A DNA stretch of 35,882 bases from a virus. The position numbers and the translations under genes were made by a program. The DNA is taken from positions 1-35,882 of the IMG/VR virus record IMGVR_UViG_3300042731_005822. One strand, written 5' to 3'. Every line of letters starts with the position of its first letter. The stretch's first letter is position 1. This document shows, in pieces, positions 17,724 through 30,771 of this stretch. Under the pieces are notes generated by a model, which was not told where the DNA came from, did no database searches, and saw nothing but the letters and a program-made list of their open reading frames with translations.

Positions 17724-18008
17724 CTAACTCCTTTTATTCCACCGTTTATAATCAAATTCCCCTTCTTTGTTTTTATAAACAATTATCGACGGGTTAGGGC
17801 ATAAAATACTTTTTTTGCTACATCCAACTACTTGAAACTCTTCCATTTCATATATTATTGTAGCATCGGCCCCACAAAAAGGACACGGTTTTAATTTAAT
17901 ATTAGAAATATTTTTTTGGTATTGTTCTGCCTTTATCCCTTCAGCATATCCCTTATCATATCCATCATAGAACGCTTCTTGTATTTCAGTTAATTTTTTC
18001 GTTTTCAT
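17724..18008 (-). CDS. Lar-like restriction alleviation family protein
   Basis: A 94-residue protein with LKPCPFCGADATIIYE at the middle and VVGCSKKSILCPNPS, ending FDYKRWNKRS. This is the Lar-type zinc-ribbon pattern (KPCPFCG followed by paired Cys and a W-N terminal motif). In E. coli Rac prophage, Lar eases type I restriction; most phage relatives are untested. The N-terminal helix (IQEAFYDGYDKGYAEGI) is an extension. Confidence 0.72.
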   Translation of the reverse strand: MKTKKLTEIQEAFYDGYDKGYAEGIKAEQYQKNISNIKLKPCPFCGADATIIYEMEEFQVVGCSKKSILCPNPSIIVYKNKEGEFDYKRWNKRS

Positions 18009-18009
18009 T

Positions 18010-18489
18010 TCATCTCTCTAACTCCTTTACTTTTTTTTCAAGTTCATTAATGTAATCAACTATATCTTCATGGATCGAACCCCCTGTATCCGATAGATAT
18101 TTTTTTAAATGTTCGTAAATCTCTCTCGCCTTTTCTAATGGTGATTGTTTTATGTAGCCATGCTGTTTTGTCATTCCTATTACAAAATTCATATCGATTT
18201 TATCATAATCGTTTAATCTTATTACAGATTTATAATATTTTATTGCTTCTTCTTCATTCTCAAAAAGATGTTTATTCTTGACATTGTATTTTACATAACC
18301 AGATGATAATCCTGTTGGTTCTTCTATTTTTTTAAATATAAAATTGCATTCTCTGTATGTCCTTGTAAGATAACAGTCTCCGTTTTCGACCTCGCATTTA
18401 TAACAACTATCCTTAAAGACTTCTTTACATGCTTTATACCTATTATCACCTATTGTTATTATGTCACCTATTTTTATTTCAGATTTCAT
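18010..18489 (-). CDS. Unknown protein, operon partner of repeat protein copy 1
   Basis: A 159-residue protein whose ATG overlaps the stop of repeat protein copy 1 (ATGA). The first part is beta with Cys residues (KACKEVFKDSCYKCEVENGD), the second helical (LEKAREIYEHLKKYLSD). It ends in a coiled coil (INELEKKVKELER). Not recognised. Confidence 0.65.
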   Translation of the reverse strand: MKSEIKIGDIITIGDNRYKACKEVFKDSCYKCEVENGDCYLTRTYRECNFIFKKIEEPTGLSSGYVKYNVKNKHLFENEEEAIKYYKSVIRLNDYDKIDMNFVIGMTKQHGYIKQSPLEKAREIYEHLKKYLSDTGGSIHEDIVDYINELEKKVKELER

Positions 18490-19118
18490 TTTATCGCCTC
18501 TTTTTCTAATAAACTTATTATTTGCTTAATTTGCCATTTTTGCTCTTTTTTATATGCTGATGAGTTTGATGCTGAGTATGATGCTGACCATGATGCTGAA
18601 TCTGATGCTAAGTATGCTGAATCTGCTGCTGATCTTGCCGCTGAGCATGCTACTGAGTATGTTGATGAATATGTTGCTGATCTTGCTGCCGACCATGCTG
18701 CTGAGTATACTGCTGAGTATGCCGCTGACCATGCTGCTGAATCTGCTGCTGATATTGCTGCTGATTCTGATTCTGACAACTCTTTATCAGTTGCTTTGCC
18801 AGCTAACCATTTCTTTTTCACCTCAATTGCTTTCCAACTGTCGGGGTGTGGCTCGCGACCTGCTTTGCGCTCTCGCTTTAGTGCTCTCGTTGCAAAAATA
18901 ATCGATAGCTCGTGAAGTATCTTTTCTTCAATAAATTCAGGGCGTAGAACTAACCACAATATATCATCTGCTTTCAAACCGCTTTTTAGAATTTCTAGAA
19001 CGCTTGCTCTTTTTCCAAGATTGTTTTTTTTGCGTAGCTCTTCTAATTCTTCTTCCGAATAGCACGGATCTAGTTCTAGCACTTTTTCTATTGTTATTAT
19101 TTTTTTATTGTAGTTCAT
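18486..19118 (-). CDS. SAAx tetrapeptide-repeat protein, copy 1
   Basis: A 210-residue member of a four-gene family in this genome. Residues 1-112 form a conserved domain (LELDPCYSEEELEELRKKNN, ILWLVLRPEFIEEKILHELS, ATRALKRERKAGREPHPDSW, KKWLAGKATDKEL). Residues about 113-185 are some 17 units of four residues, mostly Ser-Ala-Ala plus a variable residue (Trp, Tyr, Asp, Arg). The tail is KKEQKWQIKQIISLLEKEA. Start MNYNKK follows AGGTGAT; an upstream GTG was rejected. The family resembles the Ala-repeat phage proteins sometimes labelled immunity-like, from memory only; function is unknown. The next gene overlaps by ATGA. Confidence 0.82.
   Translation of the reverse strand: MNYNKKIITIEKVLELDPCYSEEELEELRKKNNLGKRASVLEILKSGLKADDILWLVLRPEFIEEKILHELSIIFATRALKRERKAGREPHPDSWKAIEVKKKWLAGKATDKELSESESAAISAADSAAWSAAYSAVYSAAWSAARSATYSSTYSVACSAARSAADSAYLASDSASWSASYSASNSSAYKKEQKWQIKQIISLLEKEAIK
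18551..18775 (-). repeat. 12-bp imperfect coding repeat array, copy 1
   Basis: Units of about 12 bp rich in GCTGA encode Ser-Ala-Ala-x. One irregular unit set (SAYLASD) breaks the register. The 3'-end part is shared with copy 4. Confidence 0.85.
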
Positions 19119-19205
19119 TTTTATCACCTTTTTTTTGAGTGATCGAGTTTTATAGATGATTCGACCAACATCTTGACTAAGTTACTACTTTCCTTTTGTC
19201 AAACT

Positions 19206-19595
19206 TTAATTTCTAAAATCAACTTTTGGGAGAATCGCTTTGGGCTTGAAAATAACTCTGTAATGATACACATTGACATCTTTTGAGTCTAATTGTTCAG
19301 CGAAATAAGTGACGTTATCTGACAACCCAAGGTAATGTTTTTTATATTCATTTTTCCCTGTTTTACATGTGAGCTCTAGTTGATTATCGTATTTATCGAC
19401 TTCTATAGAACAACGTCCCTCTACACACAAGATGTATTCTCCAGTAATCCCGTTATAGAAAACAACTCTTCTGTTTATCTCAAACATATCGGCTGCTTGA
19501 GACAAGTTCCGAGACGCCACGCTTGAATCAGTACTACACCCTACCCCTACACAAATTATAAACAACAACACCATCAAAATTAATATTTTTTTCAT
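19206..19595 (-). CDS. Phage beta-sandwich lipoprotein
   Basis: A 129-residue protein with a signal peptide (MKKILILMVLLFIICVGVGC) and a Cys at residue 20 as probable lipid site; the lipobox VGVGC is weak but usable. The body has SRNLSQAADMFEINRRVVFY, NGITGEYILCVEGRCSIEV, KKHYLGLSDNVTYFAEQL and YHYRVIFKPKAILP, matching the conserved phage beta-sandwich lipoprotein family, from memory. Other phage lipoproteins block superinfection at the cell surface; that role is possible here but not shown. It lies between copy 1 of the repeat family and a tRNA-like element. Confidence 0.78.
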   Translation of the reverse strand: MKKILILMVLLFIICVGVGCSTDSSVASRNLSQAADMFEINRRVVFYNGITGEYILCVEGRCSIEVDKYDNQLELTCKTGKNEYKKHYLGLSDNVTYFAEQLDSKDVNVYHYRVIFKPKAILPKVDFRN

Positions 19596-19620
19596 ATTTT
19601 CTCCTTTTATTTTTTAAACT

Positions 19621-19736
19621 TGGCAAAGGTAGGATTCGAACCTGCACGAGACATTAAGTTCACTTCTCCACCCATCATGCGACCCACTGCCGGTCTTTTT
19701 TCGGGGTTAGGGTTTAACCAATTCCCCCACCTTTCC
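19621..19736 (-). tRNA. tRNA-like element with abnormal body
   Basis: A T-arm (GCAGG-TTCGAAT-CCTAC, one mismatch) is followed by CTTTGCC and A. At the 5' end GGAAAGG leads into a Leu/Ser-type D arm (GGG-GAATTGGTTAAA-CCC). The two ends pair AAAGG/CCTTT with one base missing for a full acceptor stem. The element is 116 nt, too long for a normal tRNA. No anticodon loop with U33 is visible; AACCC and GGGT could form an anticodon stem around a roughly 30-nt insert holding a GACC/GGTC hairpin. It begins one base after the lipase stop. It may be a decayed tRNA, an intron-bearing tRNA or a processing signal. Confidence 0.35.
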
Positions 19737-20642
19737 TTAATCTTCATACAAATTCATAAGCCTACAAATCTCATGTTTTGCATACCCAGATTCTCCATTG
19801 ATAAAACATTCCTGGCATTGGTATCTTGTTAATTCTTTATGTTTTTTTCTGCACCTATAAATAACATTCTCATTTATATATTTTTCTAAACTATCAGTGT
19901 AGTCTTTCGGATTATGGTCTACATCTTTTTTAATCCATTTAAAATAATTACAAGGCAGATAAAGCCTCCATCCTCTTTTTTTCCCAAGTTGCAATTTATT
20001 ACCTACATGTCTATAAACCCAAAACAGAGTTTTCCGAAATGGTAATCTTGTAACAGGATCGTTTCGATAAACTATTCTAACATTGTTTTTGGAAAAATAA
20101 TGGAAAGCTTTTATAAATGCTTTATTCCCACTTCTTGGTGCACCTTCTGTTATGTGAATATCTATATTTTTTTGAAAGATATATCCTATATATACTACTA
20201 GTATTTGAGCGACACCACCACCCGAACTATGTCCACCAATAACAATATTTTTCTTGGTGGTTTTTATCTCTTCATATATTGCCTCGAATAATATTTTTGT
20301 TTGACAATTATGCCCTTCATGTACTTCTATTTTTTTTAATAAATCTAATATATGTTTAGTATGTTTTTCATGTACTCCTTCGTCAAAATGATTTTCTAAT
20401 AATGTTTGTGGGAAATCCAAATTATCCCACCAATCCTGACCATGATCTTGATCAGATCTCGACCCCTGAATACAAATATAAAAATTATTTCTGTCTTCGC
20501 AGGTATACCATTGTACAGCATCTATATTATACCATTTTTGTTGCATACCTATTTCATAATTTCCGTATTGCCCCTTGTATGTCATTGCTATCATTTTTGA
20601 TATTTTCAAAAGTCTTTCTGCGTTTATATTATATATTCTCAT
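19737..20642 (-). CDS. Class 3 lipase-like alpha/beta hydrolase
   Basis: A 301-residue protein with the nucleophile elbow GGHSSGGGVAQI (Ser139), then EGAPRSGNKAFIKAF, RNDPVTRLP (Asp195) and YRHVGNKLQLG (His212), which together are the Lipase_3 signature. An oxyanion-side segment YICIQGSRSDQDHGQDWWDN precedes. There is no signal peptide or membrane span, so it would act in the cytoplasm unless released by lysis. The C-terminus is a Cys/His-rich tail (YRCRKKHKELTRYQCQECF, then KHEIC) that may bind metal. A lipase in a phage early region is uncommon. The only SD-like site is far from ATG 20642. Confidence 0.82.
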   Translation of the reverse strand: MRIYNINAERLLKISKMIAMTYKGQYGNYEIGMQQKWYNIDAVQWYTCEDRNNFYICIQGSRSDQDHGQDWWDNLDFPQTLLENHFDEGVHEKHTKHILDLLKKIEVHEGHNCQTKILFEAIYEEIKTTKKNIVIGGHSSGGGVAQILVVYIGYIFQKNIDIHITEGAPRSGNKAFIKAFHYFSKNNVRIVYRNDPVTRLPFRKTLFWVYRHVGNKLQLGKKRGWRLYLPCNYFKWIKKDVDHNPKDYTDSLEKYINENVIYRCRKKHKELTRYQCQECFINGESGYAKHEICRLMNLYED

Positions 20643-20655
20643 CTTGTATATATAA

Positions 20656-20790
20656 TCATTCCTTTATTTTATAGTTATATAAATCCAGCCATTTTTCAAA
20701 AGGTATAGGACTCCTATTAAAAAAAGTCAAACAATAACAACTCTCTTTGTATTCTTTTTCCAGCTCTTCTTTTGTCATTTCTTTATACAT
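20656..20790 (-). CDS. Small protein, unknown
   Basis: A 44-residue protein (MYKEMTKEELEKEYKESCYC) that starts inside the end of the upstream gene and ends 14 bases before the lipase start. C-terminal IPFEKWLDLYNYKIKE is aromatic. Overlap with its neighbour suggests coupled translation. Not recognised. Confidence 0.55.
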   Translation of the reverse strand: MYKEMTKEELEKEYKESCYCLTFFNRSPIPFEKWLDLYNYKIKE

Positions 20791-21046
20791 TTTTCTTTCC
20801 ATCAATCTGCTTATTGCAATTTTTTTCTAAGTAATAAATATATTCAGAAAGCTCTGTCAAATTATTAAAAGAATTTATAAAAGGCTTATTCACATATTTT
20901 TTTTCGTGTATGTAATAACTTTCTCCACGTGCCTTCTCATCATCAAAAAATGTCACGAAAAAATAAACCTGAGCAAAATTCCTTTCATAGTCGTTGTTTA
21001 ATGTTGGAAACAACTTGTTTTCCTTACAAAATTTTTGTACATTCAT
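20783..21046 (-). CDS. Unknown 87-residue protein
   Basis: Start MNVQKFCKENKLFPTLNNDY was chosen because AGGTGG lies before ATG 21046; the longer frame runs into a tRNA gene and was rejected. Aromatic-rich middle (AQVYFFVTFFDDEKARGESY). First protein after the tRNA-Phe gene. Not recognised. Confidence 0.65.
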   Translation of the reverse strand: MNVQKFCKENKLFPTLNNDYERNFAQVYFFVTFFDDEKARGESYYIHEKKYVNKPFINSFNNLTELSEYIYYLEKNCNKQIDGKKNV

Positions 21047-21072
21047 GATATACCACCTTTTATTCATAAAAT

Positions 21073-21141
21073 TTGAGCGGGTGGGTTTCGAACCCACGCC
21101 AGGTATTTTCAATACCCGCCCTACCACTAGGCTACCGCTCC
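21073..21141 (-). tRNA. tRNA-Phe (GAA)
   Basis: Cloverleaf on the minus strand: acceptor GGAGCGG/CCGCTCA (first pair G-A unmatched), D arm GCC-TAGTGGTAG-GGC, anticodon arm GGGTA-TTGAAAA-TACCT giving anticodon GAA, short variable region GGC, T arm GTGGG-TTCGAAA-CCCAC. CCA is not encoded. It lies 37 bases after a strong promoter and is the first product of that transcript. The short variable region and weak acceptor end are slightly unusual. Confidence 0.8.
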
Positions 21142-21177
21142 GCTTCTGAACAACTAGGCTAATTCTTAATTGCCTTA

Positions 21178-21206
21178 AATATATCAAGTATCTTGCGATC
21201 TGTCAA
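21178..21206 (-). promoter_or_regulatory. Sigma70-type early promoter before tRNA-Phe
   Basis: TTGACA (21201-21206), 17-base spacer, TATATT (21178-21183). Six bases after TTGACA the spacer holds AAGATAC, a box shared with three other early promoters. It would drive the tRNA, the 87-residue gene and the lipase block. Confidence 0.72.
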
Positions 21207-21276
21207 ATGTTTTATTTTGTTTTCTTAAAAAAATGCCCTTTTTTTTAAGTTGTAGGGCTTCAACTTCTTTTTCTTC

Positions 21277-21305
21277 AAAAAGTAGAACTCCCATAACTAC
21301 TTTTT
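21277..21305 (-). terminator. Hairpin terminator after the endolysin operon
   Basis: AAAAAGTAG-11 nt-CTACTTTTT, a 9-bp stem whose 3' arm ends in five T on either strand, 50 bases after the endolysin stop. On the plus strand it is also followed by ATTTTTT, so it may work both ways. A second 6-bp stem (AAGTTG/CAACTT) lies at 21246-21265. Confidence 0.6.
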
Positions 21306-21355
21306 ATTTTTTCGAATCCTCCTTTAAATATATTATAAAACATAATAGTTTTATT

Positions 21356-21802
21356 TCACAGTTTAAAATTCAATAAACCAGTTTGAAAAGATTCATTTCT
21401 GTTTTTTCTTTTTGTTGTATATGATATATGAACCCACTCCACTATTTCACCATTTTTCTGTCTTCTTTCGTAAATAAGCTGGTCATAATCCAATTTCAAA
21501 CCCATGGCAATGTAATAGATCATTTCTGCACTCAAATTTGTACAAGAAACAATATCCGCGGCCTCTCCTTCCATATGCTGAGAATTTTTTGATCCTCCTA
21601 TAAGTGCATTCAACTCCGGAGTCCTATACCCAGACGTAACCAGCAAAGCGCCGTGATATTCTCTTATTGGCTCAAGAATATTGATACAAAGTTCGCGAAT
21701 ATTTCCGATTAAATTTGATGGCACAGCATTATCTATATTATTTTTTATAGCGGTTTCGGAGTTTTCAAATTCGCTTAGTTGGAAATGTTTTGAAAGATTC
21801 AT
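21356..21802 (-). CDS. Endolysin, M15-type peptidase
   Basis: A 148-residue peptidase with LVTSGYRTPELNALIGGSK, SQHMEGEAADI (His76, Asp83) and EWVHISY (His125), the zinc-ligand and catalytic pattern of the M15_3 D-Ala-D-Ala/L-Ala-D-Glu peptidases used as phage lysins. No signal peptide or separate wall-binding domain. It lies in the recombination operon, far from the structural genes, which is unusual for a lysis gene. It overlaps the upstream gene by four bases and is followed by a terminator. Confidence 0.88.
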   Translation of the reverse strand: MNLSKHFQLSEFENSETAIKNNIDNAVPSNLIGNIRELCINILEPIREYHGALLVTSGYRTPELNALIGGSKNSQHMEGEAADIVSCTNLSAEMIYYIAMGLKLDYDQLIYERRQKNGEIVEWVHISYTTKRKNRNESFQTGLLNFKL

Positions 21803-22119
21803 TGAATACCTCTTGCCTCATATGCAAGCACCATGTTAACGTAATCGTTAAAGTTTCTATGCAGAATATCAAGAACAACTTGTATTCTCTCCCATTGTTC
21901 CTTTTTGATTTCTAGACTTGTTGAACTTGTCCCAAGTCTTCCTATCTCTGTTGAAGACACATCAAGTTTTTTGTACTCCCCATTTACGATATTTTCCATT
22001 ATTAGCTCGACGATATATCTTTTGTAGTACATTACTTCACCTTGGTTTTTCTCCTGGTGCATTTTCTTGTATATTTTTTCCTTAATTTTTTTGCTAGTCT
22101 TAAAACTTTTCTGAACCAT
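21799..22119 (-). CDS. Unknown basic helical protein
   Basis: A 106-residue protein (MVQKSFKTSKKIKEKIYKKM). Strongly basic N-terminus, helical centre (YYKRYIVELIMENIVNGEYK), and C-terminus with IQVVLDILHRNFNDYVNMVL. Charge suggests nucleic-acid contact. Lies between an ERF partner gene and the endolysin. Not recognised. Confidence 0.65.
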   Translation of the reverse strand: MVQKSFKTSKKIKEKIYKKMHQEKNQGEVMYYKRYIVELIMENIVNGEYKKLDVSSTEIGRLGTSSTSLEIKKEQWERIQVVLDILHRNFNDYVNMVLAYEARGIQ

Positions 22120-22129
22120 ATTCGCTCCT

Positions 22130-22582
22130 TTATTTTATTTCTAAATCTGGATTTCCTTCTATAAAAATTTTGTCAATTACTTCTTGTTTTTTTCCACCAA
22201 CTTTTCTAGCTTCTTTTGCCTTTGACCATAAAGGTCTATATATTTTTTCTCCTATTTCAGAAGAATCAAATCCCGCATTCTCGTATACCTCATCTGCATT
22301 TTTTACAACACACTTTGTTGTTCCTTTTTTAAGAGTTACAGTCCTCTTCTCCCCTTTAATATCCTTGAAAAAACTTTTCGTTGCTCCATCTCTTTTCATG
22401 GTAATTATTATGTTTTCCTTTAAATTTCTTTTATGTGCAGAGATTTGATTGCTCATTTTGCTTAGAACGTCATATACTGCATTTTTAATTTCTTCTGGAT
22501 ATTTGTCCGGATTTTCGGCAACGTCAAAAACATTTATCCTCCCTATTCCAAAATCTATATCCTCTTTTATTATTTCACTCAT
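22130..22582 (-). CDS. Unknown protein paired with ERF annealase
   Basis: A 150-residue protein starting MSEIIKEDIDFGIGRINVFD; its ATG overlaps the ERF stop (ATGA), so the two are made together. Lys-rich, with RDGATKSFFKDIKGEKRTVT and RPLWSKAKEARKVGGKKQEV. A recombination or nuclease-protection role is possible by neighbourhood only. Confidence 0.68.
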   Translation of the reverse strand: MSEIIKEDIDFGIGRINVFDVAENPDKYPEEIKNAVYDVLSKMSNQISAHKRNLKENIIITMKRDGATKSFFKDIKGEKRTVTLKKGTTKCVVKNADEVYENAGFDSSEIGEKIYRPLWSKAKEARKVGGKKQEVIDKIFIEGNPDLEIK

Positions 22583-23217
22583 ACTATTTCCCCATTTAGT
22601 AAGACAGTATCGCAATTTTCAAGTTCTAGTAATTCATATTTATCGTCGAACTTTTTATCGATTGTTTCTTTTTGTCTAGGCGATAGACTTTGATCATATA
22701 ATGCTTTTTTATAATTGTCTACTCTTTCTACAGAGTCTAATTCAGCAAGGATTCTATCTATTTCTTTAAAGTCTGTGCTTAATTTTTTTGTTGTACTCGT
22801 TTTTTTCTTCTCTTTAACTAAACTATTACCGTCGTCATCTTCTTCAGTTGCAATATTAAAAATAGCGCTGATTAACCCTCTTCGTCCATATTTCAATGCG
22901 CCAATAAAAGTTTGCGCATCGCTTCTATTTCCGTTATAAGTTGGTATAGACAATCTTCGTTCTATCCATTGCCCAGACACGTGCATTATAAGTGCTCTTA
23001 TTTGCATCATTCCTTGTTCAGACAAGAACCCGTCACATATTACAACTATACCATTTTTTTGTAAAATTGGTCTTAGTTCATCTAACAATGTTGCTAATCT
23101 TGTATATTTAGAATTATAGTAAGGGTTATTGGCATCAGGACTTGGATTTTTTATTTCCTTATTACATTCGTTTAGTGCTATTATTAACTCTTTAATGTTC
23201 TCACTTTTTTTCATCAT
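22579..23217 (-). CDS. erf: ERF-family single-strand annealing recombinase
   Basis: A 212-residue protein with the ERF pattern: IALNECNKEIKNPSPDANNP, NPYYNSKYTRLATLLDELRP (31-50), ILQKNGIVVI, LIMHVSGQWIERRLSIP, and QTFIGALKYGRRGLISAIF with IATEEDDDGNS. ERF proteins anneal complementary single strands and help circularise phage DNA or repair forks. The gene overlaps repeat-protein copy 2. Such an annealase could act on the near-identical tracts shared by the repeat gene copies. ATG 23217 or the next codon may be the start. Confidence 0.9.
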   Translation of the reverse strand: MMKKSENIKELIIALNECNKEIKNPSPDANNPYYNSKYTRLATLLDELRPILQKNGIVVICDGFLSEQGMMQIRALIMHVSGQWIERRLSIPTYNGNRSDAQTFIGALKYGRRGLISAIFNIATEEDDDGNSLVKEKKKTSTTKKLSTDFKEIDRILAELDSVERVDNYKKALYDQSLSPRQKETIDKKFDDKYELLELENCDTVLLNGEIV

Positions 23218-23861
23218 TTTCCTACCTCTAATAATCTTATAATTTGCTTAATTTGCCATTTTTGCTCTTTTCTTTTTGCTAATATCTCTATTGTTAATTT
23301 TGGTGACGATATTGATGCTGACTCTAATGCTGACTCTGATGCTGAAACTGCCGCAAACCATGCTGACTCGACTGCTGACCGGTATGCTGACCGTGATGCT
23401 GAGTATGATGCTGAAACTGCTGCTGCTCTTACGGCCGAGGTTGATGCTGACCATAATGATTCCCATGCCACCTCTGATGCCAACTTTTCTGCCGACCATG
23501 CTGCTGATTCTGCTGCTCGCAATTCCTCATCTGTTGCTTTGCCTGCCAACCATTTCTTCTTCATCTTAATCGCTTTCCAGCTGTCGGGGTGGGGCTCGCG
23601 GCCAGCTTTGCGCTCTTGCTTCAATGCTCTCGTTGCGAAAATTATTGATAACTCGTGCAATATTTTTTCTTCGATAAAGTCTGGGCAAAAAACTAACCAC
23701 AGGATATCTGATGTTGGGATTTTGCTTTTTAATATTTCTAGAACACTTACTTTTTTTCCAAGATTGTTTTTTTTGCGCAGCTCCTCTAATTCACTTTCTG
23801 AATAGCACGGTTTAAGTTCTAGTACCTTTTTTATCGTTATTATTTTCTTATTGTAGTTCAT
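23214..23861 (-). CDS. SAAx tetrapeptide-repeat protein, copy 2
   Basis: A 215-residue family member starting MNYNKKIITIKKVLELKPCY after GGTGATAAA. The N-terminal domain is kept (VSVLEILKSKIPTSDILWLV, ATRALKQERKAGREPHPDSW, KKWLAGKATDEEL). The repeat region is the most degraded of the four (WSAEKLASEVAWESLWSAS ... VSASESALESASISS) and is followed by an extra stretch PKLTIEILAKR before KEQKWQIKQIIRLL. Its stop overlaps the ERF start. First gene after a promoter with a palindrome. Confidence 0.82.
   Translation of the reverse strand: MNYNKKIITIKKVLELKPCYSESELEELRKKNNLGKKVSVLEILKSKIPTSDILWLVFCPDFIEEKILHELSIIFATRALKQERKAGREPHPDSWKAIKMKKKWLAGKATDEELRAAESAAWSAEKLASEVAWESLWSASTSAVRAAAVSASYSASRSAYRSAVESAWFAAVSASESALESASISSPKLTIEILAKRKEQKWQIKQIIRLLEVGK
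23290..23525 (-). repeat. 12-bp imperfect coding repeat array, copy 2
   Basis: Degenerate GCTGA-rich units. The flanking 60 bases at 23511-23570 are identical to 30421-30480 in copy 4. Confidence 0.8.
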
Positions 23862-23888
23862 TTTATCACCTTTTTTTTTCAACATGTC

Positions 23889-23917
23889 AATGTGTCAAAT
23901 ATCTTTTATTTTGTCAA
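23889..23917 (-). promoter_or_regulatory. Probable early promoter before repeat copy 2 and ERF
   Basis: TTGACA (23912-23917) with the shared upstream AAACAC and spacer AAGATAT at the same offset as in three stronger promoters; the -10 candidate CACATT is poor. Other TTGACA-like words lie just downstream. Confidence 0.4.
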
Positions 23918-23929
23918 GTGTTTTGACAA
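23911..23929. promoter_or_regulatory. Palindrome over the -35 box (possible operator)
   Basis: TTGTCAA-5 nt-TTGACAA, perfect 7-bp arms, covering the -35 of the promoter for repeat copy 2. Just after the HNH gene stop. Confidence 0.4.
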
Positions 23930-24178
23930 TCATTTTCCCCTTATATTTTGCATTTTTTGTATTCCGCTTTTACTCCGAGGCTCTATTCCAAAATTTTCAC
24001 AAAATTGTAGTTCGCTCCACTTTGGAACGCCTTTCCACAAATGACATTCTTCACAGACATTTATTATGTTGTCACTATGATGTATATATTCTTTGTATAT
24101 TTTTTTATATAATTTTGTTTGACTTAATAAGTGATGTTTTTGTGTTGCTTTATTTTTGTTGCAAATCTCGCAAATCAT
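23930..24178 (-). CDS. HNH endonuclease, small
   Basis: An 82-residue protein with CEICNKNKATQKHH (two Cys, then His-His at 15-16), NIINVCEECHLWKG (Asn, two Cys, His46), the zinc-bound HNH fold. It is short and lacks extra DNA-recognition domains, as in homing or packaging-linked nucleases, but it is far from terminase. ATG directly follows the upstream TAA. Confidence 0.82.
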   Translation of the reverse strand: MICEICNKNKATQKHHLLSQTKLYKKIYKEYIHHSDNIINVCEECHLWKGVPKWSELQFCENFGIEPRSKSGIQKMQNIRGK

Positions 24179-24334
24179 TTAACACCTCCTATCTAAAGGA
24201 TACCACACTTTACACCATTCGTAAAAAGTCTGTGGTTGTTCAGAATTATATCTCATCTGCTCTTTGTAGTAGTTATAGTTATTTCTTAGCTTTTGTAATA
24301 ACTTCATAGATAATACTTTATAATATCTAGTCAT
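24179..24334 (-). CDS. Small basic protein, unknown
   Basis: A 51-residue protein (MTRYYKVLSMKLLQKLRNNY) rich in Tyr and Lys, ending in EWCKVWYPLDRRC. AAAGGA before ATG 24334. Its TAA touches the HNH ATG. Confidence 0.6.
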   Translation of the reverse strand: MTRYYKVLSMKLLQKLRNNYNYYKEQMRYNSEQPQTFYEWCKVWYPLDRRC

Positions 24335-24345
24335 ATCTTTTTCCT

Positions 24346-24837
24346 TTATTTAAATATTTCTTTTCTTATTTTTTCGTAATTGTCTTTTATATGTCCTTGC
24401 ACTTCCGCTGCTTTGTATTCGCAGTATTGGATAAATCCTTTTGCTAATTCCTGTTTTATATGTGCCATACTAGGCACATATCCTTTAAGCTTCCCATCTA
24501 TTATTACTAACTGCTTTCTTGTTATGTTTTCTGGAATATCTTCTATTTTTTCGCATTTTATACCCATATATTCCCATTTAACCCATTTATGAATTCTTGC
24601 TCTATTTTCTTTGTCCTGGACTTCTCCCATGCCTTCCATTATTGCTGGCAACAAATGTCCTCTATATGCCTGGTGTATCCAATATTTTATCCCTTCAATA
24701 ATTTCTATAGTTGTTTCTATCTTTTTCCCTTCGTTTTTTTGCATAAACCTTGTATATTTTATTTCTCCATCTTTAGAGCTTTTTGTATATACTAGCTTTC
24801 CGCCTTTTATCAAACCAATCATTCTTAATTTTTTCAT
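24346..24837 (-). CDS. Possible NinB-like recombination protein
   Basis: A 163-residue protein starting MKKLRMIGLIKGGKLVYTKS, overlapping the upstream stop as ATGA. Pattern IKYWIHQAYRGHLLPAIMEG, RARIHKWVKWEYMGIKCEK, SMAHIKQELAKGFIQYCEY then KAAEVQG recalls NinB/Orf-type phage recombination proteins in order and spacing, but similarity is weak. An unnamed phage family is an equally good reading. Confidence 0.6.
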   Translation of the reverse strand: MKKLRMIGLIKGGKLVYTKSSKDGEIKYTRFMQKNEGKKIETTIEIIEGIKYWIHQAYRGHLLPAIMEGMGEVQDKENRARIHKWVKWEYMGIKCEKIEDIPENITRKQLVIIDGKLKGYVPSMAHIKQELAKGFIQYCEYKAAEVQGHIKDNYEKIRKEIFK

Positions 24838-24989
24838 AGTATACCTACAATATAATCTTTTATCATGCAATAAATTGCTGCTTCTATTTCTTTATTATAA
24901 AGCAATGGATCATTTTCTAATTTTTTTTCTAACTCTTTAATTTCAAAATCTGCTAATTCAATTTTTATTTGTGTTATTTTTTCTTTCAT
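24834..24989 (-). CDS. Small acidic protein, unknown
   Basis: A 51-residue protein (MKEKITQIKIELADFEIKEL) with a helical centre and YNKEIEAAIYCMIKDYIVGI at the end. No clear ribosome site; translation is likely coupled to the upstream gene 10 bases away. ATGA overlap with the next gene. Confidence 0.6.
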   Translation of the reverse strand: MKEKITQIKIELADFEIKELEKKLENDPLLYNKEIEAAIYCMIKDYIVGIL

Positions 24990-24999
24990 TTTAATATTT

Positions 25000-25170
25000 T
25001 TATTTATTTAAAAATTTTCCATATTTATTATATTCTCTTTGTGCTTGCATATATCCTTCATTTACACCAAAATCATATCCTAAATTATAATATATTTCAA
25101 TCATATTCATTAGCTGTTTTTTATTTTCTTCCAGTCTTTCTTCAATAAATTTTTTAACTTTTTTATCCAT
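25000..25170 (-). CDS. Small helical protein, unknown
   Basis: A 56-residue protein (MDKKVKKFIEERLEENKKQL) with GGAGGTG before ATG 25170. Second half: YNLGYDFGVNEGYMQAQREY. Not recognised. Confidence 0.6.
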   Translation of the reverse strand: MDKKVKKFIEERLEENKKQLMNMIEIYYNLGYDFGVNEGYMQAQREYNKYGKFLNK

Positions 25171-25171
25171 T

Positions 25172-25369
25172 TTACACCTCCTCAAATATTTCTTTATATT
25201 CGTTTATTATTTGATCTGCATCTGACCAGTCCGTATCCGCAACATGATACAATAGATCTATGTTTTTTTCTTTTTCTATTTCTGCCATATACCAATTCAA
25301 AACTTTTTGTCTCATAATTTTTGTGTCTATATACATCTGTTTTTTAAAATAATCTGGATGCTCTTTCAT
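25172..25369 (-). CDS. Small protein, operon partner of repeat copy 3
   Basis: A 65-residue protein starting MKEHPDYFKKQMYIDTKIMR; its ATG overlaps the stop of repeat copy 3 (ATGA). Acidic, with DLLYHVADTDWSDADQIINE near the end. Not recognised. Confidence 0.65.
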   Translation of the reverse strand: MKEHPDYFKKQMYIDTKIMRQKVLNWYMAEIEKEKNIDLLYHVADTDWSDADQIINEYKEIFEEV

Positions 25370-25989
25370 TTCATCGCCTCTTTTTCTAGTAAATTGATTA
25401 TTTTCTTTATTTGCCACCTTTTTTCTTTTATATATGCAGCTGACCATGCTGCTGCTGGATATGCTGATGAATATGCTGCTGAATATGCTGCTGAGACTGA
25501 TGCTGAGTCTGCTGCCGATATTGCTGCTGATATTGCCGCTGATATTGCTGATGAATATGCTGCTGATCTTGCTGCTGAGACTGATGCTGAGACTGATGCT
25601 GAGTCTGCTGCTGATATTGCTGAGAATGCTGCTGATTCTGATGCTGACAACTCTTTATCAGTTGCTTTGCCTTTCAACCATTTCTTTTTCATCTCAATTG
25701 CTTTCCAGCTGTAGGGGTGAGGCTCGCGACCAGCTTTGCGCTCTCGCTTCAATGCTCTCGTTGCGAAAATTATTGATAACTCGTGCAATATTTTTTCTTC
25801 GATGAAGTCTGGGCGCAAAACTAACCATAATATATCTTCTGACGGAATCTTACTTCTTAAAATCTCTAAAACACTTACTCTTTTCTCAAGATTGTTTTTT
25901 TTGCGTAGAAGTTGTAATTCTTCTTCCGAATAGCACGGATCTAGTTCTAGTACCTTTTTTATCGTTATTGTCTTTTTTTCGTAGTTCAT
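25366..25989 (-). CDS. SAAx tetrapeptide-repeat protein, copy 3
   Basis: A 207-residue family member (MNYEKKTITIKKVLELDPCY). N-terminal domain as in the others (LRPDFIEEKILHELSIIFA, ATRALKRERKAGREPHPYSW). The array is the most regular: units such as DSASVSASVSAARSAAYSSA, then ISAA three times, then DSASVSAAYSAAYSSAY. Tail KEKRWQIKKIINLLEKEA. It is locked in an operon by ATGA overlaps on both sides, unlike copies 1, 2 and 4, which have their own leader. Confidence 0.82.
   Translation of the reverse strand: MNYEKKTITIKKVLELDPCYSEEELQLLRKKNNLEKRVSVLEILRSKIPSEDILWLVLRPDFIEEKILHELSIIFATRALKRERKAGREPHPYSWKAIEMKKKWLKGKATDKELSASESAAFSAISAADSASVSASVSAARSAAYSSAISAAISAAISAADSASVSAAYSAAYSSAYPAAAWSAAYIKEKRWQIKKIINLLEKEAMK
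25430..25645 (-). repeat. 12-bp imperfect coding repeat array, copy 3
   Basis: GCTGA-rich units; internally the most uniform array, with several near-identical neighbouring units, which suggests recent unit duplication. Confidence 0.85.
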
Positions 25990-26339
25990 TTTATCCTCTC
26001 AAAATCTACACTCTCTGAATAATACCCGTTTGACCCACCATACCATCTTATAGTGACGCTTCCTTTGCAAGAATTTATGTTGTAAAAAGTCCATGTTCCA
26101 CTCATAGATGCTTCTTCATCATTATGGCATGTTTCATAAGCATCTAATATTTTGTTTCCTATTATGTCACCAAGGTCACCGCAAATATCTTCAATTCTAA
26201 CGTCTTCACAACAATCTTGATAGTGATACATTTTGTATTTTTCATTTGTTTCTACAGTGAAGATTATTTCGTCTTTGTCCTTTGATATTTTTATATCTTT
26301 TATAATTTTTCCCTTTAATTTTTCTATCCCACTACTCAT
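25986..26339 (-). CDS. DUF7448-type phage protein
   Basis: A 117-residue protein with YKMYHYQDCCEDVRIEDICG, DLGDIIGNKILDAYET, SGTWTFYNINSCKGSVTIRW and YGGSNGYYSESVDFERI. This is a well-kept family found in many phages, which I recall as DUF7448; function unknown. Overlaps both neighbours (ATGA), so it is made with repeat copy 3. Confidence 0.78.
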   Translation of the reverse strand: MSSGIEKLKGKIIKDIKISKDKDEIIFTVETNEKYKMYHYQDCCEDVRIEDICGDLGDIIGNKILDAYETCHNDEEASMSGTWTFYNINSCKGSVTIRWYGGSNGYYSESVDFERIK

Positions 26340-26488
26340 ATTATTTCACCTCTTTTTAGTTCAAATTCTATGTCAAAAATAATTTTCATTAAATTTGAAA
26401 CATTTACACTTTTTGCTCTTTCATTTCGTAAGTAATTTTTTAAGCATTTCCATGCGAGGTAAGATTGATATTCAGTTAATTCATTCAT
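26336..26488 (-). CDS. Small protein, unknown
   Basis: A 50-residue protein (MNELTEYQSYLAWKCLKNYL) with a strong GGAGG before ATG 26488 and an ATGA overlap with the DUF7448 gene. First gene after the structured intergenic block, so probably the start of a transcript segment. Confidence 0.65.
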   Translation of the reverse strand: MNELTEYQSYLAWKCLKNYLRNERAKSVNVSNLMKIIFDIEFELKRGEII

Positions 26489-26511
26489 ATCCTTCCTCCT
26501 TTTTAAGGAAA

Positions 26512-26540
26512 CCCCTTGTAGGCTGTGCGTCTACAAGGGG
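26512..26540 (-). terminator. GC-rich hairpin before the DUF7448 operon
   Basis: CCCCTTGTAG-9 nt-CTACAAGGGG, perfect 10-bp stem, followed on the minus strand by TTTCCTT and then the ribosome site of the next gene. Likely a terminator or attenuator. Confidence 0.55.
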
Positions 26541-26546
26541 CGGTGT

Positions 26547-26562
26547 AATTATGACCAGCTTA
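26547..26562 (-). repeat. 16-bp repeat R, copy 1
   Basis: TAAGCTGGTCATAATT on the minus strand, identical to 27002-27017. In both places a strong hairpin and a new gene start follow. Confidence 0.7.
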
Positions 26563-26603
26563 AGGAGTGACCTTAAGATTGCATTTTTTCATCTGGCGCA
26601 ATC
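26559..26603. other. Tandem hairpins in a gene-free stretch
   Basis: CTTAAGG-5-CCTTAAG (26559-26577) is followed by GATTGC-15-GCAATC (26577-26603). The whole interval 26489-26708 carries no convincing gene; it holds these stems, repeat R, the 26512 hairpin and a tRNA-like arm. Confidence 0.5.
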
Positions 26604-26644
26604 AAAAGCGGCGTTACTGCAGAATACCACTTCGGCTCTCTCTT

Positions 26645-26687
26645 CGCAACATGCGGATTCGAACCGCATAGCCCTTATGCTGTTGCT
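26645..26687 (-). ncRNA. tRNA-like minihelix (T arm plus acceptor stem, no body)
   Basis: AGCAACA, 12 nt, then a canonical T arm TGCGG-TTCGAAT-CCGCA, then TGTTGCG-A. The outer seven bases pair with one mismatch. The D and anticodon arms are absent, so it is not a working tRNA. It may be a deletion remnant, or an RNA-processing or tRNA-mimic site. Confidence 0.4.
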
Positions 26688-26708
26688 GTAAAAACTAGTT
26701 AATTTCTG

Positions 26709-26939
26709 TTATACTTCTTCATCTTCTTCAACATGAAATATCGCACAATTTTCATAATTATAAAAACTTGCAACACTTTTGTCAAATTCAACGAAATAAG
26801 CGTTTTCAAGTTCCTCATAATTTAGTTCGTCTGTTGCTTCTTCTTCTGTAAAATCTTCATCACTTAAAATGTAAATCGAACCATCATAATATTTTTTTAT
26901 TAATTCTTTTCCGTTTTCTGTTAATGTTGTCACAACCAC
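26709..26939 (-). CDS. Small acidic protein, unknown
   Basis: A 76-residue very acidic protein (MVVTTLTENGKELIKKYYDG) with LSDEDFTEEEATDELNYEEL and the end IFHVEEDEEV. Acidic small proteins of phages often mimic DNA or bind host enzymes, but nothing specific is visible here. Ribosome site AAGGAG lies before the ATG; a hairpin precedes it. Confidence 0.68.
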   Translation of the reverse strand: MVVTTLTENGKELIKKYYDGSIYILSDEDFTEEEATDELNYEELENAYFVEFDKSVASFYNYENCAIFHVEEDEEV

Positions 26940-26959
26940 TTTCTCCTTTTTTAAATTTA

Positions 26960-26987
26960 CCGTCCGATCATGTGCCAGGCCGGACGG
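26960..26987 (-). other. Hairpin in the leader of the 76-residue gene
   Basis: CCGTCCG-14 nt-CGGACGG, perfect 7-bp stem with GC-rich arms, between repeat R copy 2 and the ribosome site. Followed by TAAATTTAAAA, so a stop signal is less likely than a leader element. Confidence 0.5.
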
Positions 26988-27001
26988 ATTGTGGTGGCAG
27001 A

Positions 27002-27017
27002 AATTATGACCAGCTTA
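27002..27017 (-). repeat. 16-bp repeat R, copy 2
   Basis: Identical to 26547-26562. Here it contains the last codons and the stop of the 99-residue gene (AGC TGG TCA TAA). Confidence 0.7.
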
Positions 27018-27303
27018 CACCACAACATTCATATACTTCATTAGTACCAACATCAGGATCTGCCAAAATTTCTTCTTTTGCGGAATTAAATTCGCTAATT
27101 GGAAAATATTCGCACTCTTCTGTTTCTACCCATTGTGAGATGTCTTCGTCGAAATATCTATATGAAGATACATACTCTTCTTTTGTTTCAATATTGTATT
27201 CCAATGTAGCCCTTGCGTCTAAGTCTTGTCCTGTTTCTTTACAATTATAAATTGTTTCAATTGTTATTTCGTAGTCGTTTCCGTTTCTTACTATTTCAGT
27301 CAT
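27004..27303 (-). CDS. Acidic protein, unknown
   Basis: A 99-residue protein starting MTEIVRNGNDYEITIETIYN; GGTGG precedes ATG 27303. Beta-rich with many Glu/Asp (RYFDEDISQWVETEECEYFP) and Cys near the end (YECCGVSWS). Not recognised. Confidence 0.68.
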   Translation of the reverse strand: MTEIVRNGNDYEITIETIYNCKETGQDLDARATLEYNIETKEEYVSSYRYFDEDISQWVETEECEYFPISEFNSAKEEILADPDVGTNEVYECCGVSWS

Positions 27304-27345
27304 AATTTCCACCATTTCCTTTTCTTAATTATAATTTAAAATTCT

Positions 27346-27630
27346 TTAGAATTTTATTTTAAATATGTCATCTGAAACTGAGTCGTTAATTCTTTTCACA
27401 TATTTTCTCATTCCTCTAAAATCCATATCCCGATTTTTTATTAAAAATTCCGCTGAGGATATTGATTTTGCAAATTCCAGATCATTGGCAATTTCAGATT
27501 TTTCAATATTTGCTTTTTCGTTGGTTTTTAAATCAACAATTTTTTTCCATGCCAACAATTCTTCTATTTTTTCGTTAAAAATGTCTTTTGCCCATTTTAT
27601 CTGTTTTTCTGTTCCTTTTAATTCATTCAT
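27346..27630 (-). CDS. Small protein with TEKQIKWA motif
   Basis: A 94-residue protein starting MNELKGTEKQIKWAKDIFNE after GGTGATAAT. The opening G-T-x-K-Q-x-x-W-A is frequent in phage and plasmid proteins of unknown role. Rest is helical and charged. First gene after a good promoter at 27666-27694. Confidence 0.68.
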   Translation of the reverse strand: MNELKGTEKQIKWAKDIFNEKIEELLAWKKIVDLKTNEKANIEKSEIANDLEFAKSISSAEFLIKNRDMDFRGMRKYVKRINDSVSDDIFKIKF

Positions 27631-27665
27631 AATTATCACCTTTTCCTTTTCTTAATTACTTATAT

Positions 27666-27694
27666 AATATACATAGTATCTTTTGTTTTGTCAA
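27666..27694 (-). promoter_or_regulatory. Sigma70-type early promoter
   Basis: AAACAC then TTGACA (27689-27694), 17-base spacer with AAGATAC six bases after TTGACA, TATATT (27666-27671). Confidence 0.68.
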
Positions 27695-27721
27695 GTGTTT
27701 TTTTAAAAAAAAGAGAAAAAA

Positions 27722-28213
27722 TTAAAGTTTTTTTGTAATTCCCGGGAATCTTTTCTTTGTTCCGTGAATACCATTTTTAGCTAGTACTATTAGTTGTTCT
27801 TTAGATATATAGTCAGATTTTAAGTACATAGACATAAACATTTCTATATGTAATATGATAAGCTGATTTACTTTATAAGGTATTCTTAGGTTAATAGCGT
27901 AATAAGCTTGATTATTTGGATGGTTATCATTAAATCTTTTTAGCTCTCTTACTTGGTGATATTCTGTCCAATATAATTTTTCTTTTCTTTCACTACTACT
28001 TTCAAAAAATTTATAATGTATTGGCTCTACTTTTTTTATCAGTTTGCACTCTATTAAAATAGGTCTTCCGTTTACAGTTGCGCTATAATCTGCGCATTTT
28101 TCAGGGATAAAGCGTGATCCTTTAAACCGTGGCATATCTGGGAACTTTTCACACCATCCACCTTCATCTTCAATAGTCTTCTTTAGTTCGTATTGAAATA
28201 CAGATTCTTTCAT
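27722..28213 (-). CDS. PD-(D/E)XK nuclease, resolvase-like
   Basis: A 163-residue protein with KCADYSATVNGRPILIECKL: Asp42, Glu55 and Lys57 form the D-(x)n-E-x-K nuclease centre. N-terminal Glu9 (FQYELKKTIEDEGGW) may be the first acidic ligand. The layout is like RecU/VRR-type Holliday-junction or recombination nucleases. ATG overlaps the small membrane gene stop. Likely acts on recombination or replication intermediates in the cytoplasm. Confidence 0.75.
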   Translation of the reverse strand: MKESVFQYELKKTIEDEGGWCEKFPDMPRFKGSRFIPEKCADYSATVNGRPILIECKLIKKVEPIHYKFFESSSERKEKLYWTEYHQVRELKRFNDNHPNNQAYYAINLRIPYKVNQLIILHIEMFMSMYLKSDYISKEQLIVLAKNGIHGTKKRFPGITKKL

Positions 28214-28317
28214 ATAGCATTAAAAATTGCGATTATTATAAGCATACATAAAGATGTTATGCTTATTCCTATCAAAAACATTGCAAGTGCTTCTTTTATT
28301 TTCCCTGGTTTTTCCAT
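28210..28317 (-). CDS. Tiny membrane protein
   Basis: A 35-residue protein (MEKPGKIKEALAMFLIGISI) with one membrane span to residue 33 and AAAGGAAG before ATG 28317; stop overlaps the nuclease start. Too small to assign; too regular (promoter, ribosome site, overlap) to ignore. Confidence 0.6.
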   Translation of the reverse strand: MEKPGKIKEALAMFLIGISITSLCMLIIIAIFNAI

Positions 28318-28346
28318 TTTTAAACTTCCTTTATTCTATTTTTTTC

Positions 28347-28375
28347 ATCGTAATATTTTTTCTTACGTTTGTCAA
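28347..28375 (-). promoter_or_regulatory. Possible promoter before the tiny membrane gene
   Basis: TTGACA (28370-28375), 17-base spacer, TACGAT (28347-28352). Lacks the shared spacer box. Confidence 0.4.
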
Positions 28376-28998
28376 GCTGTTTTAATTATTTTACCTTGTT
28401 CTACACCTTTAAACATTTCTTTAATAATTTTCAAGTCTTCTAATGTCGGGACAGGCTCTCTCTCTATTTCTATTTTTTGATCTTGCATAAGTTGCGACAA
28501 TTCATATTCTGTTTTTGTTCTGTTGTTTTCTCCTTTTATATTTTTTGCTTTTCTTGCCCTATAGTTATTTATAAGATCGCTAAATATATATAAGAAGTAA
28601 TTTTCGTAAGTATTCATTTCGTGCTGATTTATTTTTTTTGTTTCGTATATTTTGTAAAACTTGATAATATCTTCTATGCACATATTCTGCTGATCGCAGA
28701 CATAACAAACAAAAGCCTGGGGATAATATATATCATTTGTCTTCTCCCTGTGATGATCAACAAGATGTTTTTGACCTGAAATAATTGAATACCCTTTCTC
28801 ATACATATCTTTAATGTCTTTGACTGTTGGAAAAGATGTTTTCCCGTAGTTTTCTTGTACAAGAAGGTCTATAGTATCAAGTTGTGTTTCTGTTATTTTT
28901 GTCCTTTCTATATATCCCTCTATATCCTCCAAACGTATGTCTGTAGCACCAGAAGGATAACGCATTGTCAAATTTTTTATAAACTTATCTACATTCAT
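28372..28998 (-). CDS. Probable replication partner of the initiator (helicase loader-like place)
   Basis: A 208-residue helical protein (MNVDKFIKNLTMRYPSGATD). It has YPQAFVCYVCDQQNMCIEDI with a Cys pair and a C-terminal acidic helix. It follows the O-like initiator with a four-base overlap, the normal place of a helicase loader or replisome organiser, but no Walker motif is present, so it is not an AAA+ loader. Function stays open. Confidence 0.6.
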   Translation of the reverse strand: MNVDKFIKNLTMRYPSGATDIRLEDIEGYIERTKITETQLDTIDLLVQENYGKTSFPTVKDIKDMYEKGYSIISGQKHLVDHHREKTNDIYYPQAFVCYVCDQQNMCIEDIIKFYKIYETKKINQHEMNTYENYFLYIFSDLINNYRARKAKNIKGENNRTKTEYELSQLMQDQKIEIEREPVPTLEDLKIIKEMFKGVEQGKIIKTA

Positions 28999-29708
28999 TT
29001 TAACCCACCTTTTCTTTTTTTTCTCTCTTCTAATAGCTTTATAACTCTTTCCTGTTCTTTTTCATAGAATCCTTTACTTTCAGTAACCCTATTAAACTCT
29101 TTTGATTCCCACGTCCTAAAAGCTGCTTTCCAATCTTTCATTTTATTTTTTCCAATCATCCAGCCTTTCGATTCGTAATAATCAAAAAATTGGTTAGATG
29201 AAAATGATATACTTTTTTGTTGTTGTCGTTGTTGTTTGTATTCTTCTATTTGTTCTACAGTTGGTTTTATAAACCTTTTTTTTCTTTCTATATCTATATC
29301 TATCTCTTTATTAGTATTTGTTTTCTTTAGTAATTTATTATTATTAGTACTTAGTAGTGTTGGCTTTTCCGAATACGCTTTTACCGTATCGGCTGAACCG
29401 TTTCGGATAACCCGACGCGGTTGTTCATAAACAGTATAGTTATATCCTATAAACTTACCTTTTTCTTTTAATTGCTCTCTTTTGATATAACCATTGTCAA
29501 TTAGCTCTTTTATCCCGCCTGCTGTTGAATCTCGTCCGTCTTTTGATCTATTCTTTAGATCAGATAAGTAGATTTGCCAATCATCAGGCAAATGTAATAA
29601 ATAAGTTAATAATCCTTTTGCTTTCCATGAAAGATCAGAATCTCTTATACCTGTGTTATCTATTATAGTAAAATTGTTTGTTTTTTTTTCTATAGTTATT
29701 TTATTCAT
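28995..29708 (-). CDS. Winged-helix replication initiator-like protein
   Basis: A 237-residue protein. Residues 10-95 make a winged helix: NTGIRDSDLSWKAKGLLTYL, LPDDWQIYLSDLKNRSKDGR, and IKELIDNGYIKREQLKEKGK. This domain is common in O-like/DnaD-like phage initiators. A low-complexity linker (KTNTNKEIDIDIERKKRF) leads to a C-terminal part with FFDYYESKGWMIGKNKMKDW, usual in such proteins. It should bind the replication origin; no iteron set was seen within the gene. Confidence 0.82.
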   Translation of the reverse strand: MNKITIEKKTNNFTIIDNTGIRDSDLSWKAKGLLTYLLHLPDDWQIYLSDLKNRSKDGRDSTAGGIKELIDNGYIKREQLKEKGKFIGYNYTVYEQPRRVIRNGSADTVKAYSEKPTLLSTNNNKLLKKTNTNKEIDIDIERKKRFIKPTVEQIEEYKQQRQQQKSISFSSNQFFDYYESKGWMIGKNKMKDWKAAFRTWESKEFNRVTESKGFYEKEQERVIKLLEERKKRKGGLK

Positions 29709-29998
29709 TTATTACACCATTTACTTTTATTATATTCTATATTTTTCATATATTTAACTACTCTTTTTATATTTTCATCAATCAAGAACCATTCACCATA
29801 AGCTCTATTCTTATTAAAATATCTATGCAATTCTTTTTCTATTGTAAAATAGTCATCATAAAATATGGCCACTAGTAAATTTATCTTATATGGATTACCA
29901 GTTTGTAATTCTTTTATTCGTGACCACGGATTTTTACTTACTCCAAATTTCACATGGTCTTTTGATTGCATCACATAAACATACTTTTCTTGCCCCAT
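29705..29998 (-). CDS. T5orf172 / GIY-YIG-like protein
   Basis: A 97-residue protein with YVYVMQSKDHVKFGVSKNPW (tyrosines near 7-9 and VKFGVS replacing GIYYIG), SRIKELQTGNPYKINLLVAI, ELHRYFNKNRAYGEWFLID. This is the T5orf172/MUG113 family. It keeps the Glu of the fold (EWFL) and the K-x-G-V core, so nuclease activity is possible, but family function is not settled. Directly after the structured leader RNA, with GGAGG before ATG 29998. Confidence 0.82.
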   Translation of the reverse strand: MGQEKYVYVMQSKDHVKFGVSKNPWSRIKELQTGNPYKINLLVAIFYDDYFTIEKELHRYFNKNRAYGEWFLIDENIKRVVKYMKNIEYNKSKWCNK

Positions 29999-30014
29999 TT
30001 CATCCTCCTAATAA

Positions 30015-30114
30015 AAAAGAGAACCCCACAAATACCGGTTTCCCGTCGCTACGTATTTGCAAGATTCTCTTTTAGTTTAGTTTTATCTAAACAGGCGAAA
30101 GTAGCGATATTTCG
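30015..30114 (-). ncRNA. Structured leader RNA with kissing pair (attenuator or riboswitch candidate)
   Basis: On the minus strand, 5' to 3': hairpin CGAAA/TTTCG with a 9-nt loop (30096-30114); hairpin GTTTAG/CTAAAC (30075-30092); long stem AAAAGAGAA/TTCTCTTTT (30065-30073 with 30015-30023) enclosing CAAATAC/GTATTTG (30053-30059 with 30029-30035), which encloses CGG-GAAA-CCG. A 7-nt bulge GTAGCGA (30046-30052) in the inner stem is fully complementary to TCGCTAC in the loop of the first hairpin. The 3' arm runs into TTTTTT and then the ribosome site. It may control the T5orf172 and replication genes. Confidence 0.6.
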
Positions 30115-30201
30115 TCTATATAGATTGTAAGACATTTTTAAATTATTTTTCCATTTTGTCAAGTATTTTCTATTTTCTATATATTGTGTCTGTTGTTCCA
30201 T
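30049..30201 (-). CDS. Possible 50-residue leader protein
   Basis: An open frame from ATG 30201 (MEQQTQYIENRKYLTKWKNN) to TAG 30049. It runs through the first hairpin and stops inside the kissing bulge. It has no good ribosome site and overlaps a TTGACA word (30157-30162). Either a leader peptide tied to the RNA switch or a chance frame. Confidence 0.3.
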   Translation of the reverse strand: MEQQTQYIENRKYLTKWKNNLKMSYNLYRRNIATFACLDKTKLKENLANT

Positions 30202-30207
30202 AAGGAA

Positions 30208-30771
30208 TCATTTCATCACCTCTTTTTCTAGTAAACTTATTATTTGTTTAATTTGCCATTTTTGCTCTTTTTTATATGCTGATGAGTTTGATGCTGAGTA
30301 TGATGCTGACCATGATGCTGAGTATGCTACTGAGTATGTTGATGAATACGCTGCTGATCTTGCTGCCGACCACGATGCTGAGTATGCTACTGACCATGAT
30401 GCCGACCTTGCTGCCGACCTTGCTGCTCGCAATTCCTCATCTGTTGCTTTGCCTGCCAACCATTTCTTCTTCATCTTAATTGCTTTCCAGCTATCTGGAT
30501 GAGGCTCGCGGCCAGCTTTGCGCTCTCGTTTTAGCGCTCTTGTTGCAAAAATAATTGATAGCTCGTGAAGTATCTTTTCTTCGATAAATTCAGAACGCAA
30601 AGCTAACCACAAAATATCTGATGTTGGGATTTTGCTTTTTAAAATCTCTAGAACACTTACTTTTTTTCCTAGATTGTTTTTTTTGCGTAGCTCTTCTAAT
30701 TCACTTTCTGAATAGCATGGATCTAGTTCTAGTATTTTTTTTATTGTTATTATTTTTTTATTGTAGTTCAT
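30208..30771 (-). CDS. SAAx tetrapeptide-repeat protein, copy 4
   Basis: A 187-residue, shortest family member (MNYNKKIITIKKILELDPCY), start supported by GAGGTGA. N-terminal domain like copy 2 (VSVLEILKSKIPTSDILWLA), array start identical to copy 2 (KKKWLAGKATDEELRAA), array end and tail identical to copy 1 (YSASWSASYSASNSSAYKKE). Relative to copy 1 a 45-base segment of the array is missing, in frame. So this copy is a mosaic. It is a single-gene unit between a palindromic control region and the leader RNA. Confidence 0.82.
   Translation of the reverse strand: MNYNKKIITIKKILELDPCYSESELEELRKKNNLGKKVSVLEILKSKIPTSDILWLALRSEFIEEKILHELSIIFATRALKRERKAGREPHPDSWKAIKMKKKWLAGKATDEELRAARSAARSASWSVAYSASWSAARSAAYSSTYSVAYSASWSASYSASNSSAYKKEQKWQIKQIISLLEKEVMK
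30275..30430 (-). repeat. 12-bp imperfect coding repeat array, copy 4
   Basis: Shortest array of the family. Bases about 30248-30320 are identical to about 18527-18599 in copy 1; bases 30421-30480 are identical to 23511-23570 in copy 2. Confidence 0.85.

Follow-up and report, generated by a model that had tools for sequence, protein, structure and literature searches.

The window analysed here, that is, the whole 35,882-nucleotide stretch of the virus record IMGVR_UViG_3300042731_005822, carries a 57-bp terminal repeat indicating a circularly closed phage genome. In the first-pass annotation four dispersed paralogues, making up over 2.4 kb, had been noticed, and this was borne out. Copies A (18486–19118), B (23214–23861), C (25366–25989) and D (30208–30771) are all open reading frames, lie on the minus strand, which had not been stated, and amount to about 2.47 kb, or 6.9% of the genome; a profile search of the whole genome yielded exactly four copies. 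The proteins are 71–84% identical to each other and form a single clade (support 99/97) in the tree against all relatives. Thus, the copies arose by duplication inside this lineage or near it.

All four proteins share one layout: a conserved domain of approximately 117 residues, an array of (S/A)-A-A-x units spanning approximately 49–72 residues, and, at the end, a short basic tail in which WQIK is present in A, B, C and D, as annotated. The sequence motif that had been listed as common to the four copies (RALKRERKAGREPHPDSW) is exact in A and D, but B has RALKQERKAG and C has PHPYSW. In copy A, the conserved domain (residues 1–117) occupies 18768–19118, with a possible upstream GTG start at 19127, the array 18552–18767, and the KWQIK tail helix with the stop codon 18486–18551, the final ATGA overlapping the start of the gene at 18010–18489. 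In copy B, for which an upstream ATG at 23885 is possible, the domain lies at 23511–23861, a degenerate array at 23307–23510, and the KWQIK tail with the stop codon at 23214–23273, its final ATGA overlapping the start of the ERF recombinase gene (22579–23217). Copy C comprises the domain at 25639–25989, whose start overlaps by 4 bp the end of a DUF7448 gene (25986–26339, minus strand), the array at 25432–25638, and an RWQIK tail with the stop codon at 25366–25431, the final ATGA overlapping the start of the next open reading frame at 25369. Copy D has the shortest of the four arrays (30274–30420), set between the domain at 30421–30771 and the KWQIK tail helix with the stop codon at 30208–30273; its final ATGA starts a remnant open reading frame of 13 codons.

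Thus, all four genes end in ATGA, and A, B and C each share these last bases with the start of a downstream gene, a different one in each case. An intergenic gap precedes A, B and D, and these copies could be operon heads. A recognisable purine-rich start signal is seen in three of the four copies, and a like motif stands just before each ATGA; a ribosome-binding/start motif at both gene ends brings to mind a mobile cassette, although it may be no more than an ordinary start signal. Upstream of copy B there is a small CxxC/HH/CxxC open reading frame resembling an HNH nuclease (23930–24178, minus strand), and downstream of copy D one of the GIY-YIG type (MUG113/T5orf172; 29705–29998, minus strand); such putative homing nucleases could help the copies spread. 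Between copy D and the GIY-YIG gene, a long stable hairpin with a T-run end (30005–30130, minus strand; −40 kcal/mol, z −6.4) looks like a strong terminator or a structured leader, and had no match in Rfam. Two genes downstream of copy A there is an anti-restriction neighbour, a Lar-like restriction alleviation protein (17724–18008, minus strand; PF14354, E 4e-4, below the cut-off).

The arrays were examined for periodicity by counting coincidences of non-Ala/Ser residues at lag 4. The counts were 24, 21, 17 and 13 in A, B, C and D, against shuffled means of 13.3, 12.7, 5.9 and 6.5, respectively. Copies A, C and D exceed all 2000 shuffles; the value for B falls one short of the highest shuffled count (22), approximately 4 sd above the mean. 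The four-residue periodicity is beyond chance. In the conserved domain, dN/dS between the copies is 0.06–0.20 at dS 0.49–0.83; thus, the domain is under purifying selection, and the copies are old and have all been kept functional.

In the pooled arrays of A–D, GCA accounts for 87 of the 94 Ala codons and TCA for 79 of the 88 Ser codons, compared to 54% and only 15%, respectively, in the other genes of the same genome. Arrays in other phages use other codons (GCC, GCG, AGC), which are mostly near-uniform at each repeat position within one array, and one relative (L046) contains an exact duplicate of TDEELSAAYSAAYSAASS. As the Ala and Ser codons are near-uniform and unlike those of the genome, the arrays are rebuilt and grown within each lineage by duplication of 12-nt DNA units. 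Variation in the x codon falls at positions 1 and 2, where it changes the amino acid. Over 20 arrays from this phage and its relatives, the mean diversity is 0.097 at the third positions of the two Ala codons, taken as the synonymous measure, versus 0.55 at the first and 0.30 at the second position of the x codon; averaged together, these two exceed the synonymous value in 17 arrays. Since the sites of a unit have a common history, this excess of amino-acid change points to diversifying selection on the x residue, although selection or conversion could fix the Ala and Ser codons for another reason. The earlier idea of a family built for diversification would hence apply to the array, where the length differs and x outpaces synonymous sites, but not to the conserved domain of approximately 110 residues.

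Repeats of TAL effectors are near-identical DNA units of approximately 34 residues, with one or two hypervariable residues in each. The phage arrays resemble them in both respects, but this is an analogy only: the unit has four residues, there is no DNA-reading geometry, and no homology is claimed.

Relatives were collected by IMG/VR scans, and copies were counted in 78 phage records, some of them near-duplicates and many of them fragments, with adjacent partial hits in one open reading frame taken as one copy. There is one copy in 65 records, two in eight, three in four, and five in one (IMGVR_UViG_3300044210_000025), where the copies lie within approximately 6 kb and the arrays that were read are again unequal in length. 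Thus, the supposed rarity of four copies agrees with the prevalence of single-copy records, but three or five copies do occur; and of the two features that would have spoken against the annotated reading, single-copy state and invariance in relatives, the former is usual and the latter is not seen in the arrays. Two N-terminal arrangements exist in the family: the short one of copies A–D, and DUF7666 (PF24703) preceding the same core, array and tail (10 aligned members), where A–D carry a different segment. In the relatives L026, L037 and L021 the array is almost absent. In L154 (MT344104.1), a DUF7666-like region is found in a gene which the depositors annotate as a putative ADP-ribosyltransferase.

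The family gene, with an N-terminal domain approximately 60% identical between A–D and G001, the nearest relative record, is better conserved than any other of the few genes common to both phages; as G001 shares little else, the gene probably moves between phages. In G001, a DUF7448 homologue lies less than 1 kb from the family gene. Many of the sampled neighbours in the relatives are replication, recombination or DNA-modification genes, which is consistent with early expression and would fit an accessory protein too, and there is no recurrent partner, in particular no recurrent toxin or defence gene; nor was a toxin or defence partner found next to copies A–D among their neighbours in the window. 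Searches of INPHARED and plasmid proteins with whole copies or the core as a query gave no relatives, genome scans by a few exact peptide patterns gave no cellular ones, and the portal-based search gave no close relatives of this phage.

Copies A–D match phrog_18326 (E 1e-9 to 1e-13; over profile positions approximately 5–190 of 203, E 6e-9 to 3e-13), as do 28 of the 32 aligned family members, across both core and array; by profile, this is the same family. It has no function or array analysis attached, and most of its member records are single-copy. In Pfam, no model matched A–D, including Imm5_like (PF21805) and Imm5 (PF14423). Among the relatives, Imm5_like matches seven of the 32 aligned members (best E 3e-12), and L045 (47 bits) and L039 (27.3 bits) pass its curated cut-off of 25 bits, the match spanning core and array; A–D, with their SAAx arrays and N-terminal domain, differ from this model. 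For Imm5 itself, mostly helical like the phage proteins, there are weak overlaps with L039 (best, 19.8 bits) and L033, below the curated cut-off everywhere. Thus, the Imm5-like link proposed in the first-pass annotation is recovered through the relatives, but not for A–D directly. Imm5, which Zhang et al. linked to DYW deaminases, has been described as providing immunity to DYW deaminase and CdiAC toxins, and also occurs in polyimmunity proteins, in operons usually without toxins (PMC3482391). Whereas Imm5 is found with toxins, the phage genes have no toxin neighbour. The fusion of DUF7666 to an Imm5-like core might be an enzyme–inhibitor fusion.

The AlphaFold models of copies A and D are mostly helical, with the first 117 residues and the tail predicted confidently (mostly pLDDT 85–97; in copy D, approximately 85–97 for the domain and 92–96 for the tail helix), and the array residues at pLDDT of approximately 43–71. 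In the model of copy A the array is a clean hairpin of two helices of similar length, which returns the tail to the core; in that of copy D it forms several short low-confidence helices (pLDDT below 50), and the clean hairpin is not reproduced. A hairpin arm is hence a possible geometry, suggested by one of the two models. Against PDB, the copy D model gave 7jtu_B (TM 0.47/0.46 over 188 columns, probability 0.66, but a weak, non-significant E of 1.7); of the 50 matches listed, no other had TM above 0.4. For copy A, the model gave no comparable match. We take chain B of 7JTU to be SsdAI, the immunity protein of a deaminase toxin; if so, SsdAI, which is all-helical as is the copy D model, is the best fold match to copy D by TM-score among these 50. 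In the SsdA/SsdAI complex (7JTU), according to the relevant passages of PMC7901873, SsdAI blocks the deaminase toxin SsdA by pushing a helical protrusion into its active site; these passages describe no tetrapeptide array in SsdAI, unlike the phage proteins. A structure search of viral models gave one match named Imm-5-like domain-containing protein. The match to 7jtu_B may be regarded as a lead agreeing with the sequence link to Imm5, not as proof.

Several other readings were discarded. A cognate toxin–immunity pair was rejected, as no toxin adjoins any copy or recurs near the relatives. So was a virion structural protein: the copies are outside the head block, and the structural profile search gave no significant match (a weak one to a head protease, E 0.31). 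The overlaps with phrog_3416 and phrog_8332 are array-only and due to Ala/Ser composition; the type I specificity subunit matched in PADLOC (E 1e-5 to 5e-3) aligns with the array only, and low complexity was judged to be the cause; the array likewise accounts for weak matches to SurE, ExpZ, CARD8 and others of this kind.

We tentatively favour, as quite possible, the reading of A–D as orphan Imm5-like phage proteins of the phrog_18326 family, in which the array would serve as a binding arm against host or rival-phage enzymes. The N-terminal domain and the C-terminal WQIK helix would together make up the conserved all-helical core; the (S/A)-A-A-x units that separate them would form a helical arm rich in Ala and Ser, whose length changes as 12-nt DNA units are duplicated or lost and whose x residues are altered by selection. 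If the arm is the contact surface, as the protrusion of SsdAI is in the toxin active site, the proteins would bind and block host or rival-phage enzymes during infection, and several copies would provide several specificities or doses. An early-acting protein without a cognate toxin fits the neighbour genes. It is a distinctly less probable extension that the minisatellite-encoded arm sets the target choice of this inhibitor family, which would be resized as DNA units duplicate; strong selection would rewrite one or two residues in each unit, and several differing copies would make up a small repertoire of evolvable enzyme blockers.

If the family were instead a host-takeover or replication accessory protein, the core would have a single, constant binding partner from phage or host, with the array acting just as a spacer or an oligomerising stalk. 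This somewhat unlikely explanation agrees with the core and tail being conserved and confidently folded when the array is not, with the relatives almost devoid of an array, and with gene positions, both among replication and recombination functions in the relatives and in the coupling of copy B to the ERF gene. A spacer alone leaves unexplained why the x codons outpace synonymous sites, and a recurrent neighbour is lacking. We consider it unlikely that the gene is a mostly selfish mobile moron, spreading between phages and within the genome, with arrays that are slippage products of little functional meaning. The similarity to G001 in an otherwise little-shared gene set, the same ribosome-binding/start motif at the beginning and the end of the copies, and the uniform array codons, a mark of recent DNA-unit duplication, would all be expected then; but all four cores remain under purifying selection at the observed dS, and neutral slippage predicts equal diversity at synonymous and x sites.

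Immunity directed not at host defence but at toxins of competing phages, either cognate or orphan, would agree with the Imm5 family link, and MuF polymorphic toxins are known in temperate phages (PMC5576092). It is improbable here: the MuF-type head protein of this phage (10893–11960) matches head profiles over its full length and has no toxin tail, and no toxin gene was found near A–D.

The scaffold has already been named; for its DNA-unit turnover, hypervariable x and multi-copy state, no description was found in the literature searched. Should the preferred reading as orphan inhibitors hold, an immunity-protein scaffold would have become, in a large unstudied phage family, an inhibitor able to evolve rapidly, its variable residues would point to the contact surface, and a repeat-driven route of diversification would be added to phage counter-defence. 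The combination of the constant core, uniform repeat codons and hypervariable x allows for a direct test of target-binding residues. Even if the array were no more than a stalk, the family would clearly exemplify the turnover of DNA units in a compact genome.

Elsewhere in the window, this 36-kb phage has a class 3 lipase gene (19737–20642, minus strand; PF01764, E 9e-14), adjoining a small lipoprotein gene, and a tRNA-Phe gene (21073–21141, minus strand), which is overlapped by a predicted open reading frame at 20783–21187.
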